A stretch of DNA of 64,000 nucleotides from Enterobacter ludwigii (GTDB taxonomy: Bacteria; Pseudomonadota; Gammaproteobacteria; Enterobacterales; Enterobacteriaceae): the NCBI RefSeq assembly GCF_001750725.1, contig NZ_CP017279.1, forward strand, positions 1,612,001-1,676,000, given 5' to 3'. Below are positions 11,210 through 34,700 of this stretch, piece by piece. The translations under genes and the position numbers were made by a program. Numbering within the stretch: position 1 is the first letter of the stretch; every line of letters begins with the position of its first letter. The notes under the pieces are model-generated. The model did not search any database. It saw nothing but the letters and a program-made list of their open reading frames with translations, and had not been told where the DNA came from.

Positions 11210-12102
11210 TGTTGACTCAGGAAACGCCCGTCCCGGTTAAAACAGCGAAAGCAGGCATCAACTGGGCAAAACTGTTCTGGATGCTGCGTAAAAGTCCCCT
11301 CACGCTGATTGGCGCCGCGATCATGATCCTGATGCTCCTGCTGATGGTGACATCACCGTGGATTGTACCGCATGACCCCAATGCGCTGGATTTGACCGCG
11401 CGTCTGCAGGCTCCGTCTGCCGAACACTGGTTTGGCACCGATGAGGTCGGCCGCGATCTGTTCAGCCGGGTGCTCGCCGGCAGCCAGCAGTCGATCAGCG
11501 CGGGGCTGGCCGTCGTGGTGATTGCGGGTGGTATTGGCTCGCTGCTGGGCTGTTTGTCTGGCGTACTGGGCGGGCGCGGCGACGCCATTATTATGCGCAT
11601 TATGGACGTTATGCTCTCCATTCCATCGCTGGTGCTGACCATGGCACTGGCGGCGGCGCTGGGGCCGAGCCTGTTTAACGCAATGCTCGCCATCGCGATT
11701 GTACGTATCCCGTTTTACGTGCGTCTGGCACGCGGGCAAACCCTTGTCGTGCGCCAGTTTACCTATGTTCAGGCGGCCCGCACCTTCGGCGCATCACGCT
11801 GGCATTTAATCAGCTGGCATATTCTGCGCAACGCCCTGCCGCCGCTGATTGTGCAGGCTTCGCTGGATATTGGCAGCGCCATTCTGATGGCCGCCACGCT
11901 GGGCTTTATCGGTCTGGGCGCACAGCAACCCACCGCCGAATGGGGCGCGATGGTTGCCGTAGGGCGCAACTATGTTCTCGACCAGTGGTGGTATTGCGCT
12001 TTTCCTGGTGCGGCCATTTTGATTACCGCCGTGGGCTTTAATCTTTTTGGTGACGGCATCCGCGACCTGCTGGATCCGAAATCAGGAGGGAAACAGTCAT
12101 GA
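11206..12102 (+). CDS. ddpC: D,D-dipeptide ABC transporter permease DdpC
   Basis: Second permease subunit, DppC/OppC type, 298 aa. The N-terminal TM segment (LTLIGAAIMILMLLLMVTSPW), the motif HWFGTDEVGRDLFSRVLAG typical of OppC proteins, and the EAA-like loop (YVQAARTFGAS...LRNALPP) are all visible. It overlaps ddpB by 4 nt at the start and ddpD by 4 nt at the end, so the permease/ATPase genes form one tightly coupled block. Confidence 0.93.
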   Translation: MMLTQETPVPVKTAKAGINWAKLFWMLRKSPLTLIGAAIMILMLLLMVTSPWIVPHDPNALDLTARLQAPSAEHWFGTDEVGRDLFSRVLAGSQQSISAGLAVVVIAGGIGSLLGCLSGVLGGRGDAIIMRIMDVMLSIPSLVLTMALAAALGPSLFNAMLAIAIVRIPFYVRLARGQTLVVRQFTYVQAARTFGASRWHLISWHILRNALPPLIVQASLDIGSAILMAATLGFIGLGAQQPTAEWGAMVAVGRNYVLDQWWYCAFPGAAILITAVGFNLFGDGIRDLLDPKSGGKQS

Positions 12103-21093: not shown

Positions 21094-22791
21094 ATGGACA
21101 ACAAACTGAAAAAACATCGTTCCTTATATATCCCTTATGCCGGTCCGGTTTTACTGGAATTCCCCCTGCTCAACAAAGGCAGCGCCTTCAGCATGGAAGA
21201 GCGCAGCAGCTTTAACCTGCTTGGTCTGCTGCCCGAAGTGGTGGAAACCATTGAAGAACAGGCTGAACGTGCGTGGATCCAGTATCAGGGTTTCAAGACT
21301 GAAATCGACAAGCACATCTACCTGCGTAACATTCAGGACACCAATGAAACCCTCTTCTATCGCCTGGTTCAGAACCACCTCGAAGAGATGATGCCGGTGA
21401 TCTACACCCCAACGGTGGGTGCGGCCTGTGAACGTTTCTCTGAGATCTACCGTCGTTCCCGCGGCGTATTCATCTCTTATCAGAACCGCCACAATATGGA
21501 CGATATTCTGCAGAACGTGCCGAACCACAACATCAAGGTCATTGTTGTGACCGACGGGGAACGTATTCTCGGCCTCGGGGATCAGGGCATTGGCGGAATG
21601 GGGATCCCAATCGGTAAGCTCTCCCTGTACACCGCCTGTGGAGGTATCAGCCCGGCGTACACCCTGCCGGTAGTGCTGGATGTGGGTACCAACAATCAGC
21701 AGCTGCTCAACGATCCGCTGTACATGGGCTGGCGTCATCCGCGCATTACCGACGATGAGTATTATCAGTTTGTTGATGATTTTATCCAGGCCGTTAAGGC
21801 ACGCTGGCCGAACGTGCTGCTGCAGTTTGAAGACTTTGCGCAGAAGAACGCCATGCCGCTGCTGAATCGCTACCGCGATGACATCTGCTCATTCAACGAC
21901 GACATTCAGGGCACCGCCGCCGTGACCGTTGGGACGCTGATCGCCGCCAGCCGTGCGGCAGGCAGCCAGTTGAGCTACCAGAAAATCGTCTTCCTGGGCG
22001 CAGGCTCTGCGGGCTGCGGTATTGCCGAGCAGATTATTGCTCAGACGCAGCGCGAGGGCTTGAGTGAAGAACTGGCCCGTTCCCGTGTCTATATGGTTGA
22101 CCGTTTCGGCCTGCTGACCGACGGTATGCCTAACCTCCTGCCGTTCCAGACCCGACTGGTTCAGAAACGTGAGAACCTGAAAAACTGGGATACCGACAAC
22201 GAGGTGCTCTCCCTGCTGGACGTGGTGCGCAACGTGAAGCCGGACATTCTTATCGGCGTTTCCGGGCAAACCGGTCTCTTCACCGAAGAGATTATTCGCG
22301 AAATGCACAAACACTGTGAACGCCCTATCGTGATGCCGCTCTCTAACCCGACTTCCCGTGTAGAAGCAACGCCGCAGGACATCATCGCCTGGACCGAAGG
22401 TAACGCACTGGTGGCAACCGGCAGTCCGTTCGACCCGGTGGTGTGGAAGGATAAAACCTATCCGATCGCGCAGTGCAACAACTCCTACATCTTCCCGGGG
22501 ATTGGTCTGGGGGTTATCGCGTCCGGTGCGTCACGCATTACCGATGAAATGCTGATGTCCGCCAGCGAAACCCTGGCGAAACACTCACCGCTGGTGAATA
22601 ACGGTGAAGGCCTGGTGTTGCCAGAGCTGAAAGACATTCATAAAGTGTCCCGCGCGATCGCTTTCGCAGTAGGAAAAATGGCACAGCAGCAAGGCGTGGC
22701 GGTGAAAACCTCCGCCGATGCGCTGCAGCAGGCCATTGACGACAACTTCTGGATGCCGGAATACCGCAGCTATCGCAGAACGTCTATCTAA
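21094..22791 (+). CDS. maeA: NAD-dependent malic enzyme MaeA
   Basis: Oxidative decarboxylation of malate to pyruvate with NAD+. 565 aa from the ATG at 21094, identical in length to E. coli MaeA; the in-frame GTG at 21085 would add three residues without better support. Diagnostic blocks include [16 protein letters not shown], the malic enzyme signature around [19 protein letters not shown], the Rossmann motif [15 protein letters not shown], and [17 protein letters not shown]. It follows bdm-sra and ends in a large hairpin. Confidence 0.96.
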
Positions 22792-22795
22792 AGAA

Positions 22796-22829
22796 CAGGC
22801 CGGGTCAGGCAATCATGCCTCCCGGCCTG
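22796..22829. repeat. Long hairpin after maeA
   Basis: CAGGCCGG (22796-22803) pairs with CCGGCCTG (22822-22829), and an inner stem AGGCA/TGCCT closes a 4-nt loop. There is no T-tract, so it is more likely a 3'-end stabiliser or REP-like element than an intrinsic terminator. Confidence 0.6.
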
Positions 22830-22915
22830 CCATTCTGCCCGCGCTTGCCGGGCCGTAAAATCCCCGCTACACTGCCTTCATCCATTAACCTACTGAATAT
22901 ATAAGGAGGCCAATT

Positions 22916-22999
22916 ATGCTGTACTGTGAAATTTTCAATGTTTCACATACATTTGGTGATCGCACCAGCTCAAGCGTTATCGGTATCGTGCTGCGATAA
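22916..22999 (+). CDS. Candidate 27-aa leader peptide upstream of the ABC-F gene
   Basis: ATG at 22916 preceded by a near-ideal Shine-Dalgarno (AAGGAGG, 7-nt spacing), giving MLYCEIFNVSHTFGDRTSSS and ending VIGIVLR-stop. No homologue is recognised. The stop codon lies inside the 3' arm of the long hairpin at 22968-23012, so ribosome position on this ORF would decide whether the hairpin can form. The strong ribosome-binding site contrasts with the poor one of the ABC-F gene 116 bp downstream, as expected for translation-dependent attenuation. Confidence 0.6.
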   Translation: MLYCEIFNVSHTFGDRTSSSVIGIVLR

Positions 23000-23065
23000 C
23001 TTCTGCTTGAGCGAAGACACCAACCCCTGAAATCCCTTCTCTCGGGCTTACTGAGTTATCGTCAG
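22968..23065 (+). promoter_or_regulatory. Structured mRNA leader of the ABC-F gene
   Basis: GCTCAAGC-GTTATCG (22968-22982) pairs with CGATAAC (22994-23000) and GCTTGAGC (23005-23012), a 15-bp stem with a 4-nt bulge, overlapping the end of the 27-aa leader ORF. A second copy of GTTATCG (23055-23061) is displayed as the exact 7-nt loop of a CTGA/TCAG hairpin (23051-23065). It could pair with CGATAAC instead, giving two exclusive folds or a pseudoknot. No U-tract terminator was seen, so control of ABC-F translation is more likely than transcription termination. Confidence 0.55.
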
Positions 23066-23087
23066 CGATGTTTGACGAGGCATAAAC

Positions 23088-23108
23088 ATGCCTGTAACTC
23101 TTGGGTAA
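23088..23108 (+). CDS. Six-codon mini-ORF just before the ABC-F start
   Basis: ATG at 23088 (MPVTLG-stop) with GAGG 7 nt upstream, ending 6 nt before the ABC-F ATG. The ABC-F start has no clear Shine-Dalgarno of its own, so reinitiation or coupling from this mini-ORF is plausible. It may also be chance. Confidence 0.35.
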   Translation: MPVTLG

Positions 23109-23114
23109 GCAACA

Positions 23115-24824
23115 ATGAGCACTTTACTCACTGCACAATCTCTACGTGTTGATACGGCGTTTGGTACGCTCTTCGACTCTCTCTCCTTTACGCTGAAAAA
23201 AGGCGATCGCATCGGTCTGCTGGGCGACAACGGCTGCGGTAAAAGTACGCTGCTGAAGGTGCTGGACGGTACGGACACGCCTACCGCCGGAACGGTCGCG
23301 CTGGCCGGGCACTGCATCATGGCGCGCGTAGAACAACATCTGCCGGACGGGATTTACCCCCTGAGCATGCTGGATGCCGTGCTGGCACAACTGCCTGCAG
23401 CTGAACGCGAGAGCCTGCGCTGGAAAGCGGAAACGCTGCTGGCGAGTATGGGCTTTACGCCGCAGGACTGGACATTAACCTCGGCAACATTGAGCGGCGG
23501 GCAACATACGCGTCTGCTGCTGGCGCGGGCTTTGATTAATGCGCCGGACCTGCTGCTGCTGGATGAACCGAGTAACCACCTCGATTTACCCACCATGCTC
23601 TGGCTGGAGCAGTTTTTACAGGCCTGGTCAGGCAGCTTTGTGCTGGTTTCACATGACAGGCAGCTGCTGGATGCCGTGACCAACGGCAGCTGGATCCTGC
23701 GCGATAAGATGCTGCATTACTTTGCCCTTCCCTGCACCGCCGCACGCAAAGCGCTGGATGCGAAAGACGAAAGTGATGCGCAGCGCCACAAGGCAGAACA
23801 AAAGGAGATCGACCGCGTCGCGGCCAGCGCAAAAAGACTGGCGACCTGGGGCAAAGTCTACGACAACGAAGACCTGGCCCGCAAAGCGAAACAGATGGAA
23901 AAGCAGGTTGAACGGCTGAAAGAGAGCCAGACGGAGATCACGGCGGGAAGTCAGTGGACATTAACCCTGCGCGGCGACGCGCTACGGGCCGATCGTCTGC
24001 TGGAGCTGGAAAACCTCGCGGTGCCGCCGGCGCCCGGGCTGCCTGCGCTGTTTAACATTGACATCGCGCGTCTCAAAAGCGGCGATCGCGTGGCCATCGT
24101 TGGACGTAACGGCTGTGGTAAATCATCCCTGATGAAGCTGATCTGGCGGCATTTTCGCGGCGAGCAGGCTGACGATGGGCTGAAACTCCATCCACGCGTA
24201 TCGCCTGGCTATTATGACCAGACGCTGAACCAGCTCCCGGATGATGCATCGCTGTTTGATGCACTGGAGCCGTTTGCACCCGATCCGCAGAATCGCAAGA
24301 TGGCCCTGATCGGTGCCGGCTTTGCGTGGCCACGTCACGGTCAGAAAGTCAGTACGCTCAGCGGTGGAGAACGCTCTCGCCTGCTGTTTGTTGGCCTGAC
24401 GTTAGCGCGCTATAGCCTGCTGATGCTGGATGAACCGACCAACCATCTGGACATGGAAGGCAAAGAGGCGCTGACGGAAACCCTGCAGCAATTTGAAGGT
24501 GGCGTGCTGCTGGTCAGCCATGACCGTCAATTAATCAGCCAAAGCTGCAACCGTTTCTGGCTGATTGAGGACGGCAGGTTGAGTGAATGGCATGACGCCG
24601 AAGCGGTCTTTGAACGGCTGCGTGAAAGTGCAGGCCTGATAACATCGCCGTGTTCACCGAAACAACAGCACGATCGCCCTTCGCAGTTTGACGACCTGCT
24701 TGAACGGCTGATCGCGCTGGATACATTGCTGGAGGAAGACCTGGCCCGCAAACCGAAGCACCAGAAGCCGCAGTTGCAGGCGCAATGGCGCCAGGAGATT
24801 GAGGCGATAGAAGCAAAACTGTAA
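23115..24824 (+). CDS. ABC-F family ATPase (accessory paralogue)
   Basis: 569 aa with two ABC domains and no membrane segments, the ABC-F architecture of ribosome-binding translation factors and antibiotic-resistance proteins. First domain: GDNGCGKST, signature LSGGQ, Walker B LLLLDEPSNHLD. A charged interdomain linker follows (about residues 200-280, with KAEQKEIDRVAASAKRLATWGK, the arm that probes the P-site tRNA in family members). Second domain: GRNGCGKSS, LSGGERSRLL, LMLDEPTNHLD. It differs from E. coli EttA, Uup, YheS and YbiT, so it is an additional member. It is preceded by a structured leader with small ORFs. A role in ribosome protection is inference. Confidence 0.85.
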   Translation: MSTLLTAQSLRVDTAFGTLFDSLSFTLKKGDRIGLLGDNGCGKSTLLKVLDGTDTPTAGTVALAGHCIMARVEQHLPDGIYPLSMLDAVLAQLPAAERESLRWKAETLLASMGFTPQDWTLTSATLSGGQHTRLLLARALINAPDLLLLDEPSNHLDLPTMLWLEQFLQAWSGSFVLVSHDRQLLDAVTNGSWILRDKMLHYFALPCTAARKALDAKDESDAQRHKAEQKEIDRVAASAKRLATWGKVYDNEDLARKAKQMEKQVERLKESQTEITAGSQWTLTLRGDALRADRLLELENLAVPPAPGLPALFNIDIARLKSGDRVAIVGRNGCGKSSLMKLIWRHFRGEQADDGLKLHPRVSPGYYDQTLNQLPDDASLFDALEPFAPDPQNRKMALIGAGFAWPRHGQKVSTLSGGERSRLLFVGLTLARYSLLMLDEPTNHLDMEGKEALTETLQQFEGGVLLVSHDRQLISQSCNRFWLIEDGRLSEWHDAEAVFERLRESAGLITSPCSPKQQHDRPSQFDDLLERLIALDTLLEEDLARKPKHQKPQLQAQWRQEIEAIEAKL

Positions 24825-31769: not shown

Positions 31770-34700
31770 TTACGCTTTCTCGATGTTGACCAGAAACGCT
31801 TTGTACTCCGGCGTTTGCGAGTTGGAATCGCCGACGTTTGGCGTCAGGGTATTGGCGAGGTAGCCTTTTTGCGCCACCCCTTCAAAGCCCCAGTGCAGCG
31901 GAATACCGACAGTTTCCACCTGCTGACCATGCACGTTCAGCACCTGCAGACGACGCGTAACCACCGCAACCGCGCGAATAAAGCCACGCTTGCTGCTCAC
32001 CTTCACGCGGTCACCGTTGGCAATACCCTTCGCTTTCGCCAGCGTTTCGCTGATCTCCACAAACTGTTCCGGCTGGGCAATGGCGTTAAGCCGTGCATGC
32101 TTGGTCCAGGTATGGAAATGCTCGGTCAGGCGGTAGGTTGTCCCGACATACGGGAACCTGTCCTTCTTGCCTAAACGCAGGACGTCCTCTTCATAGATAC
32201 GCACCACCGGACTGGATATGACGTTCGGGTGCAGCGGGTTGGTACCGAGCGGCGTTTCCATCGGCTCGTAGTGTTCCGGGAATGGCCCCTCCGCCAGCTT
32301 ATCAAGGGCAAACAGGCGTCCCAGCCCTTCCGGCTGCATGATAAACGGCCCGGTCTCAGTGCCCGGTGCGGCGGTGCTGAAGTCCGGAATATCGTTACCC
32401 GTCCATTTGCTGCCGTTCCATTCGATCAGCATCCGTTTCGGATCCCACGGTTTGCCGTTGATATCCGCAGAAGCACGGTTGTACAGCACGCGACGGTTCA
32501 GTGGCCATGCCCACGCCCAGCCCAGCGTATTGCCCAGCCCTGACGGGTCGGCGTTATCGCGGTTCGCCATCTGGTTACCCTGCTCCGTCCAGCAACCGGT
32601 GTAGATCCAGCATGACGACGCGGTCGTGCCGTCATCCCGCAGCAGCGCGAAGCTGTTGAGCAACTGACCTTTCTTCGCCAGCAGTGTGCCGTTCGCGTCA
32701 TACAGATCCGCCAGCGCAATGCCGTTATTCTCTTTGGCGACCTCTTCGGATTCAGGATGGTCCGGCTGTTTGTAATTCCAGCTCATCCTCAGCAGCGGTT
32801 CAGCGCCTTTCCCCCCTTCGGTGCGATACATTTCACGCAGACGATGGTAAATCCCGGCCAGGATTTCGCCGTCGTTACGCGCTTCACCCGGTGCATCCTG
32901 GCCTTTCCAGTGCCACTGCAGCCAGCGGCCGGAGTTGGCAATCGACCCGTCTTCTTCTGCAAAACAGGTGGACGGCAGGCGGAACACTTCGGTCTGAATC
33001 GATGCAGGATCGACGTCGTTCATTTCGCCGTGGTTCTGCCAGAAGTTGGAGGTCTCGGTCACCAGCGGATCGATAACCACCATGTATTTCAGTTTGCTCA
33101 GGCTGCGAACGACCTTGTTTTTGTCCGGGAAAGACGCCACCGGGTTAAAGCCCTGGCAGATGTAGCCCGTAACGTTGCCCTTATCCATCATGTTGAAATA
33201 CTTAATGACGTCGTAGGCCTGGTCCCATTTCGGCAACCACTCGAAGCCCCAGTCGTTTTCCTTCTGCGCGGCATCGCCATAGAACGACTTCATCAGGCTG
33301 ACGAAGAACTTCGGATAGTTACTCCAGTAGTTCACCTGATCGGCACGCGTCGCTTTTGGCGTGTTGGCCGCCAGATAGCTGTGCAAATCAGTCTGCTTTT
33401 CAGACGGCAGCGTCAGATAGCCTGACAGGCTGGTCGACAGCAGGCCCAGATCGGTCAAGCCCTGAATGTTGGAGTGTCCGCGCAGGGCGTTCACGCCGCC
33501 GCCGGCCATCCCCATGTTTCCAAGCAACAGCTGGATCATTGCCATGGTGCGGATGTTTTGCGCACCGACGGTATGCTGCGTCCAGCCGAGCGCATACAGG
33601 AACGTCGTGGTTCTGTCGGCGGCGCTGGTAGAGGCCAGTACATCACACACCTTGAGGAAATCTGCTTTTGGCGTACCGCAGATATTCTCCACGACGTCCG
33701 GCGTATAGCGGGAAACATGCTGTTTCAGCAAATTCCATACGCAGCGCGGATGGCTCAGGGTCTCATCGCGTCTGGCGTAGCCGTTTTCATCGAACTGGTA
33801 GTTCCAGGACGATTTATCGTACTGCCGTTTTTCCGCGTCATAACCGCTGAACAACCCCTCTTCAAAGGCAAAATCATCCCGTACCAGGAGGCTGGCATTG
33901 GTGTAATGCTTAACGTATTCAGCGTTAATTTTATTGTTTTCAATCAGGTACAGCAGAACGCCTGAGAGGAACGTAATGTCCGTACCGGAGCGAATAGGCG
34001 CATAGATATCCGCCACCGATGCCGTACGCGTAAAGCGCGGATCGACAACGATCAGCGTCGCATCGTTATTGTTTTTCGCTTCCATCGCCCAGCGGAAACC
34101 CACCGGATGGGCTTCAGCGGCATTACCGCCCATCACCATCACGACGTTGGCGTTTTTAATATCAACCCAGTGGTTGGTCATCGCACCGCGACCAAATGTT
34201 GGAGCAAGACTTGCTACCGTTGGTCCGTGTCAGACGCGCGCCTGGTTATCTACCGCCAGCATGCCGAGGGAGCGCACAAATTTTTGCGTCAGCATGCCGG
34301 TTTCATTACTTGCCGCGGACGCGCACAGCATGCCGGTCGACAGCCAGCGGTTCACCGTAACGCCCTGCGCGTTCTTTTCGATAAAGTTGGCGTCGCGGTC
34401 AGCTTTCATCAGTTTTGCGATTCGGGAAAACGCCTCATCCCAGGAGATACGCTGCCATTTGTCAGATCCTGGCGCACGGTATTCCGGATAGCGCAGACGG
34501 TTTTCGCTGTGGACATAATCCAGCAGACCCGCCCCTTTCGGACAAAGTGCGCCACGGCTCACCGGATGATCCGGGTCCCCTTCAATATGATAAATCGCTT
34601 CTTTGGCGTTCTTCGCGCCATCGCCCAGGCTATACATTAAAAGCCCACAACCTACGGAACAGTATGTGCAGGTGTTACGGATCTCTTTCGCGCGCAGCAG

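Follow-up and report, generated by a model that had tools for sequence, protein, structure and literature searches.

ABC-F genes controlled by upstream open reading frames (uORFs) are known in Gram-positive bacteria, namely vmlR (PMC9226507), msrD (PMC10314930), and cplR (PMC10201436). In this work, we analysed the 5' leader of an ABC-F gene in a stretch of 64,000 nucleotides from Enterobacter ludwigii (assembly GCF_001750725.1, contig NZ_CP017279.1, positions 1,612,001 to 1,676,000), which is called the window and whose own numbering is used for all coordinates. The leader contained an open reading frame (ORF) of 27 codons whose stop codon was located 115 nt upstream of the ABC-F gene. We consider it probable (roughly 0.72) that this 5' leader works as a translational attenuator controlled by ribosomes. 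This reading was based on the gene order, on conservation, on two competing folds with covariation, and on a computed window of leader codons at which a ribosome eases the opening of the ABC-F start.

The vmlR gene of Bacillus subtilis resembles our locus, as proposed here, in being a uORF-controlled ABC-F gene with alternative RNA folds and ribosome stalling, but it works through an intrinsic terminator and an antiterminator, neither of which was found here, and VmlR is a proven resistance factor (PMC9226507). Similarly, the msrDL-msrD locus of Streptococcus has a leader peptide before an ABC-F gene, and its ABC-F protein suppresses its own induction (PMC10314930), as the one at our locus may do. 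The arrest at msrDL depends on a drug, has been characterised, and acts on a Rho-independent terminator, whereas the arrest in our leader is putative and its output is predicted at the ribosome-binding site. Among the features of the vmlR/msrD type, the leader had a uORF with its own Shine-Dalgarno (SD) sequence, as judged by sequence conservation, and mutually exclusive folds, as computed; the intrinsic terminator output was absent. The way in which the vmlR and msrD leaders work (PMC9226507, PMC10314930) is the argument for transcription attenuation of the same type in Enterobacter. However, there were 0 terminator-like sites in the interval 22700-23200 of the window and no U-run was seen behind the conserved hairpins. 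An intrinsic terminator was therefore rejected as the output of the leader, and we regard this explanation as highly improbable.

The initial annotation of this DNA, made from the letters alone, knew of no described case of such control in enterobacteria. This has to be narrowed, since toiL of Escherichia coli is an antibiotic-sensing uORF, although it controls topAI rather than an ABC-F gene (PMC12121999). In the topAI-yjhQP leader, as is predicted here, an enterobacterial uORF is combined with an RNA structure hiding a ribosome-binding site; toiL is drug-responsive, and stalled ribosomes were proposed to free that site (PMC12121999). A ribosome-binding site that would be hidden without a ribosome and freed by a paused one was also what our in silico analysis pointed to. 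In contrast to the 27-codon ORF before the ABC-F gene, toiL has eight codons and belongs to a toxin-antitoxin operon (PMC12121999). Our leader also differs by its long-range two-state fold and by the opening window that was computed for codons 14-23.

The ABC-F protein itself probably belongs to the PAF1 subfamily, a proteobacterial ABCF subfamily that was predicted in 2019 to confer resistance (PMC6723617), and our protein shares the proteobacterial origin. The available text of that paper says nothing about a leader or about the regulation of PAF1, and it lacks the term 'leader peptide'. Among open-licence PubMed Central papers, we found neither an earlier report of this leader nor another paper naming PAF1 together with ABCF or ABC-F. 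What appears to be new is an ABC-F attenuator in Gammaproteobacteria with a predicted output at the ribosome-binding site and an opening window in the middle of the leader, while the kind of control itself is known.

Conservation and distribution of the leader and its ABC-F gene

We collected 230 loci in which the ABC-F protein was at least 50% identical to that of the window. The sets from which they were fetched overlapped, and four loci were excluded: L132, a chance match in a small genome without the ABC-F gene, and L232-L234, where the ABC-F was only 39-42% identical. Since re-fetched copies of the same genomes were present among the 230, a non-redundant set of 95 loci was used as well. 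The leader ORF was found in 230/230 loci, which places the 27-codon ORF with an ideal SD sequence that the initial annotation had noticed beyond chance. The ORF had 27 codons in 220 loci, 28 codons in 4, 26 codons in 4, and 35 codons in 2, and encoded 133 distinct peptides. The 35-codon form was the same frameshifted peptide seen twice in one species, Phytobacter massiliensis (L065 and L169). The frame was kept (26-28 codons in 94/95 non-redundant loci) while the spacer to the ABC-F start was free modulo 3 (39, 30, and 26 of the 95 loci). In an alignment of 94 non-redundant sequences (A1), from which L124 was left out because of a long insertion, the SD sequence of the leader was mostly invariant or nearly so. 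We also checked whether the leader and its hairpin lacked conservation where the ABC-F gene was kept, and the attenuator was not refuted in this way; instead, an attenuator with alternative pairing before this gene was supported over many genera.

These data also bear on the idea that the leader is a structured RNA binding a protein or a metabolite and that its ORF is incidental. The RNA was strongly conserved with little signal at the peptide level, which would suit such an element, but the start, the strong SD sequence, the stop, and the frame of the ORF were kept while the spacer drifted. Moreover, no Rfam family reached the gathering score in the leader region, so that a known Rfam element was rejected as the identity of this RNA at that threshold. 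A ligand-binding RNA is, in our estimate, a very unlikely explanation.

Among the 230 were the best 80 of 194 loci that had been retrieved from named genomes with the ABC-F protein as the sole query. The genera represented include Enterobacter, Lelliottia, Leclercia, Kosakonia, Citrobacter, Klebsiella, Raoultella, Cedecea, Buttiauxella, Kluyvera, and Trabulsiella. Their neighbourhoods varied, with maeA upstream in 59/80 and adhP within 2.5 kb downstream in 40/80, and the leader and its ABC-F gene also occurred on large plasmids of Pantoea, Rahnella, and Ewingella. The unit is not bound to one gene neighbourhood. Three records in the plasmid collection (CP125156.1, NZ_OL790812.1, and NZ_AP026896.1) were chromosome-like with 4-5 Mb, so counts per plasmid were inflated. 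On the Ewingella plasmid (L214, 1-480), another gene with an ABC-F annotation of its own was located about 2.7 kb away from the one with the leader. In another locus (L131, G153 C122, around 11458-11520), a maeA-like gene and the real leader were separated by a region that held a partial second copy of the 5' end of the leader, and a further open frame lay between the two.

Six further loci extended this distribution. Leaders of 26-28 codons were found in five of them, from Vibrio campbellii, Photobacterium, Aeromonas caviae, Proteus, and a Morganella plasmid, where the ABC-F was 53-59% identical. In the sixth (L242, CP093281.1, labelled as a Pseudomonas silvicola plasmid), the ABC-F gene was in three pieces and the leader ORF was broken; the label may be wrong, since the leader region resembled Pantoea copies by eye.

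Searches by leader DNA matched 34 of 60 genomes, namely 34/36 of the genus (the window's own genome included) and 0/24 from other families of the order; two genomes of the genus (G007 and G023) gave no match to the leader DNA. In 392 genomes of the family, the leader DNA matched 101, whereas the ABC-F protein gave 115 matches, three of them only 40-43% identical. All 13 orthologs that the DNA search had missed (55-64% identity) had the leader (13/13). The three matches of 40-43% identity lacked the RNA, and no such leader was found at the three fetched relatives of 39-42% identity. A covariance model built from the long-range fold described below matched once per genome in 113/392. These were 112 genomes with an ABC-F of at least 55% identity and one (G087) where the RNA was present and the ABC-F frame was shifted in that assembly. 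Among the 112, the ABC-F gene was cut by a contig end or had an internal stop in some genomes, for example in G253, G421, G394, G307, and G257. Since some of these loci had served to train the model, its recovery of them was partly by construction. No other gene was found under the same RNA in the family genomes, and in a 350-genome sample of the class, which held few relatives, the model matched only the window's own genome. Control of other genes by this RNA was thus rejected as far as searched (392 family and 350 class genomes), with the limit that covariance searches of more than 40 genomes used stricter filters that can lose weak matches. Searched with the leader DNA, 5,426 E. coli genomes gave no match, and neither did a phage collection.

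Two competing folds and the computed effect of a ribosome

The leader region folded at -74.8 kcal/mol against a shuffle mean of -54.9 kcal/mol (z -4.6; 0/200 shuffles as good). The initial annotation had described a 15-bp hairpin around the stop codon of the leader ORF, and a bulged hairpin with the stop codon inside was indeed present (22968-22982 with 22994-23000 and 23005-23012; 7 + 8 bp, 4-nt bulge). Its outer 8 bp, formed by segments A and D (Table 1), were kept with 98.9% of cells paired. Its inner 7 bp, formed by segments B and C, were not conserved: the fifth pair was broken in 37/94 sequences, and B:C was rejected as a functional stem. The word GTTATCG, whose repetition had suggested an alternative pairing, was present in both copies (22976-22982 and 23055-23061), and segment C paired with segment F in 97.2% of cells, with 4 pairs changed on both sides.

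Two folds can be drawn from these segments. In the long-range fold, A pairs with the ribosome-binding region of the ABC-F gene (A:SD), C with F, and D with E. In the local fold, A pairs with D, and hairpins H3 and H4 are formed, while hairpins P1 and H5 are compatible with both. A:SD was paired in 96.2% of cells, and A:SD and A:D each had 2 pairs changed on both sides. In the key column of segment A, a change from A to G was joined by a change of the D partner in 17 sequences and of the partner in the ribosome-binding region in 7, with 8 unpaired there. D:E was paired in 93.7% of cells, with one pair broken in 31/94, and the five inner pairs of H5 in 97.7%, with 3 pairs changed on both sides. 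RNAalifold unaided picked A:D, H5, and part of P1. A small hairpin at codons 13-18 (P2) was rejected with 58.1% of cells paired.

The helices specific to the long-range fold were paired in 95.6% of cells, compared with 33-46% when the segments were slid, and both-side changes were seen in 20 cells, where the shuffles had a mean of 3.8. For those specific to the local fold, the values were 94.6% against 20-38%, and 25 cells against 6.7. When the shared helices were included, 91.1% of cells were paired in the long-range fold and 89.1% in the local fold, with 98 and 103 both-side changes compared with 40 and 43 in shuffles. Thus, in the covariation check that had been suggested together with the initial annotation, both folds lay above shuffles. 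Two mutually exclusive folds are conserved, and their covariation is modest but real.

The effect of a ribosome was computed by blocking 31 nt around it at each leader codon and calculating the cost of opening the ABC-F start. This masking and the peptide tests used 91 ORFs of exactly 27 codons, and the pair probabilities were computed for 90 sequences. Without a ribosome, the median opening cost was 7.4 kcal/mol. With one at codons 1-12 it was 6.8-8.0, it fell to 6.5 at codon 13 and to 3.9-4.9 at codons 14-23, and it rose up to 8.6 at codon 27, where the stop codon is in the ribosomal A site and the cost was above the no-ribosome value in 69/91. In the window's own sequence, the costs were 8.3 kcal/mol with no ribosome, 5.0-6.7 at codons 14-23, and 7.8 at codon 27. 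A gain of at least 1.5 kcal/mol at codon 18 was seen in 73/91 real and 9/182 shuffled sequences. Other footprints and opened regions, tried on 31 sequences, gave a similar window whose edges shifted by about two codons. The dip was present in 5/6 distant or second-replicon copies, namely in Vibrio THAF64, Photobacterium, and Proteus, and in a narrower form in Morganella and V. campbellii. A ribosome at codon 18 covers A, which then cannot pair. At codon 27 it covers D and C, which leaves the ribosome-binding region as the sole partner for A; the pair probability of A:SD was 0.68 in this position, the only one in which H3 was not rare in the computed ensemble (0.44). By these pairings, a finishing ribosome is predicted to keep the gene shut and a ribosome at codons 14-23 to ease its opening.

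On these grounds, the initial annotation had to be revised in the position of the stall. It had expected stalling on MLYCEIFNVSHT... to open the hairpin, whereas the predicted window, codons 14-23, lies just after that stretch. Opening by a stall at the C-terminus was not supported either, since in the computation the start stays closed with the stop codon in the A site (median 8.6 against 7.4 kcal/mol).

The same end of the leader invites the explanation that ribosomes arrest at the stop codon, much as on TnaC or SpeFL, and control Rho-dependent termination rather than the ribosome-binding site. The last residue was Arg in 91/91 peptides, preceded by Leu in 86/91 and followed by UAA in 90/91; [V/A]LR-stop also occurred in V. 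campbellii, Photobacterium, and Aeromonas, and a pyrimidine-rich stretch surrounded segment E. However, these end codons lie in segment C and are explicable by its pairing with F, and masking at codon 27 left the ABC-F start closed. We regard arrest at the stop codon as an unlikely explanation, and a Rho-dependent layer on the leader control as possible.

In the attenuator that we favour, segment A would tend to pair with the ABC-F ribosome-binding region, accompanied by C:F and D:E, when the leader is empty, and again to pair with that region when ribosomes run to the stop codon, and the ABC-F would then be little translated. A ribosome pausing at about codons 14-23 would cover A and make the start site easier to open. 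The ABC-F translation factor would then be made and could act on slowed or drug-blocked ribosomes. We infer in this scheme that the leader is translated, that pausing occurs, and that the ABC-F relieves the pause.

Table 1. Features of the ABC-F leader and gene in the window
Feature	Position	Strand	Basis or remark
Putative -10-like hexamer TACACT of a presumed leader promoter	22868..22873	+	recurring hexamer in relatives
Shine-Dalgarno AAGGAGG of the leader ORF	22903..22909	+	sequence; 6 nt 5' of the leader ATG
Leader ORF, MLYCEIFNVSHTFGDRTSSSVIGIVLR followed by stop	22916..22999	+	sequence; length kept across loci
Hairpin P1, GUGAAA/UUUCAC, in the leader ORF	22926..22946	+	91.5% of cells paired; both-side changes in 2 pairs
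Codons 11-16, [H/R]-x-[F/L/Y]-G-[D/N]-R in most	22946..22963	+	part of the stretch that looks peptide-constrained
Segment A, GCUCAAGC, codons 18-20	22968..22975	+	partner D or ABC-F ribosome-binding region
Segment C, GCUGCGAUAAC, contains the stop codon	22990..23000	+	partner F
Segment D, GCUUGAGCGAAG	23005..23016	+	partner A (local fold) or E (long-range fold)
Segment E, CUUCUCUCGGGC	23036..23047	+	partner D
Hairpin H3 of the local fold	23041..23055	+	88.1% of cells paired
Segment F, GUUAUCGUCAGC, second GTTATCG copy	23055..23066	+	partner C
Hairpin H4, CGUCA/UGACG	23060..23077	+	94.0% of cells paired; excludes C:F
Hairpin H5, AGGCAU/AUGCCU	23078..23093	+	fits both folds
Six-codon ORF, MPVTLG followed by stop	23088..23108	+	ends 6 nt 5' of the ABC-F ATG (23115); judged not essential
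ABC-F ribosome-binding region, CUUGGGUAAG (consensus CUUGAGUAAG)	23100..23109	+	A can sequester it by pairing
ABC-F ATPase, 569 aa, probable PAF1 subfamily	23115..24824	+	profile and protein comparisons, PMC6723617

Several features of the leader stand apart from the proposed switch. The initial annotation had regarded the six-codon ORF as the second part of a two-ORF leader. The ORF exists, but a short ATG ORF of at least 4 codons ending no more than 20 nt from the ABC-F start was present in 64/95 non-redundant loci and absent in 31/95, so a second regulatory ORF was rejected. The switch model assigns no role to hairpin P1, which was conserved with changes on both sides and which may slow the ribosome. 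Upstream of the leader ORF, a TA[ACT]N[ACT]T hexamer occurred 30-70 nt 5' of the ATG in 87/95 loci, a count made with no chance control, and its position was mostly -46 to -48. A two-hexamer scan around the leader gave no sigma-70 promoter. Between the -10-like hexamer and the SD sequence, a CCATTAAC-like stretch (22874-22902) recurred in many of the relatives inspected. Elsewhere in the window, Rfam SECIS_3, a selenocysteine insertion element, was matched at 34177-34235 on the minus strand with 84.3 bits.

Indications of peptide-level constraint and the possible trigger of the putative pause

The ratio of non-synonymous to synonymous change (pN/pS) differed strongly along the leader, although the sequence pairs were not independent and the values are indications only. 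It was 2.6 at codons 18-20 and 3.4 at codons 21-24, where the amino acids varied while the synonymous sites were fixed; these codons were therefore conserved as RNA. Thus, the C-terminus of the leader, whose conservation had been proposed as a check of a peptide-based stall, was kept at the RNA level. Ser19 and the final Arg were invariant (91/91 each), and both lie inside paired segments. In contrast, codons 13-16 (FGDR or FGNR) had a pN/pS of 0.28 in frame, compared with 0.46 and 0.99 in the other frames, and codons 10-12 had 0.44, compared with 0.66 and 1.15. These values hint at peptide-level constraint at codons 10-16 only.

This pattern bears on the nature of the trigger. The same switch could be a general sensor of translation speed that answers any slowing, such as starvation, cold, or assembly defects, with no recognition of a drug or a peptide. 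The absence of a peptide-level signal over the whole ORF (pN/pS 0.85) and the freedom of codons 17-24 at the peptide level are in line with such a sensor, as is the response of E. coli toiL to at least five drug classes (PMC12121999) and the induction of VmlR by ribosome assembly defects (PMC9226507). On the other hand, codons 10-16 look peptide-constrained, and a motif like [H/R]-x-[F/L/Y]-G was found again in the leaders of Vibrio, Photobacterium, and Aeromonas. We see the speed sensor as a serious possibility, if short of even odds; since it differs from the attenuator as we favour it in the trigger only, the confidences in the two overlap.

For the attenuator with a more specific trigger, the peptide motif at codons 10-16 may help to set the pause, and our first guess for its cause is a drug at the peptidyl-transferase centre. 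The stretch of codons 10-16 would occupy the exit tunnel or the P site when the ribosome enters the opening window. Phenicol-type drugs, whose preference at the penultimate position is for Ala and, less so, for Ser or Thr (PMC8987054), could plausibly act at the serines of codons 18-20. A bolder reading, which we put at less than even odds, makes the leader a sensor dedicated to a class of peptidyl-transferase-centre inhibitors able to enter the Gram-negative cytoplasm. Its specific arrest motif would be [H/R]-x-[F/L/Y]-G-[D/N]-R with the serines of codons 18-20 after it, and PAF1 would be the matching rescue factor that completes the circuit by removing the stalled ribosome from the leader.

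A number of observations weigh against the attenuator as we read it. First, the covariation was unevenly spread: 78/98 and 78/103 of the both-side cells came from P1, P2, and H5, which are common to both folds, D:E had almost no covariation (a single pair changed on both sides), and the count of pair types was not above shuffles (105, 470, and 392 of 500 shuffles reached it for the full long-range structure, the full local structure, and the local-specific helices, respectively). In addition, relatedness can raise the other covariation measures, as the shuffles ignore kinship. Second, the folds were mixed with no ribosome present (mean pair probability 0.63 for A:SD and 0.31 for A:D), and opening the ABC-F start still cost about 4 kcal/mol at codon 18. 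The tighter closing at codon 27 failed in Proteus, in Vibrio THAF64, and in the leader of the window (8.3 kcal/mol with no ribosome and 7.8 at codon 27), and the Aeromonas copy had a weak dip only. The model treats the ribosome as a simple block and folding as an equilibrium, whereas co-transcriptional folding could favour the local, open fold. Third, the pN/pS of the whole ORF was no lower in frame than in the other frames (0.75 and 0.82), which gives no overall peptide signal. Finally, the ABC-F protein was below the NCBIfam resistance cut-offs: it scored 316 bits against the 380 bits of the ribosomal-protection-like model NF000355 and was further below the cut-offs of the specific resistance models shown.

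The ABC-F protein and its possible role

Three other ABC-F proteins were found in the genome (E 1e-30), with 30-34% identity to the leader-linked one, which is thus an additional copy. They matched NCBIfam PRK10636, Uup, and PRK15064; we take PRK10636 to be YheS and PRK15064 to be YbiT. The leader-linked protein had no Arm insertion, and the tip of its linker was about 13 residues longer than in the PRK10636 and PRK15064 proteins and about 7 residues longer than in Uup. A linker extension is not a rule for antibiotic resistance ABC-F proteins (PMC6723617). In an AlphaFold model with a mean predicted local distance difference test (pLDDT) score of 86.9, the first linker helix had 42 residues. 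The top Foldseek matches to this model were a mixture of resistance and housekeeping proteins (VmlR2, human ABCF1, YheS, PoxtA, and EttA). In a protein search with 3173 matches, the 120 listed were all 88-99% identical and had generic or no names. With regard to the taxonomic distribution given for PAF1 (PMC6723617), the ABC-F occurred in Enterobacter, Klebsiella, Citrobacter, and Vibrio, and the leader DNA matched none of the E. coli genomes searched.

The presence of a conserved, switch-like leader before the intact copies examined provides independent evidence that the protein is made when translation is disturbed, and the question of what PAF1 protects against becomes reducible to a simple reporter screen. 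If the leader were a dedicated sensor and PAF1 its rescue factor, then an intrinsic, inducible ABC-F ribosome-protection module would be common to Enterobacterales, Vibrionales, and Aeromonadales. The leader would also extend the attenuated control of ABC-F genes from the described Gram-positive cases to Klebsiella, Enterobacter, Citrobacter, Pantoea, Proteus, Vibrio, and their relatives.

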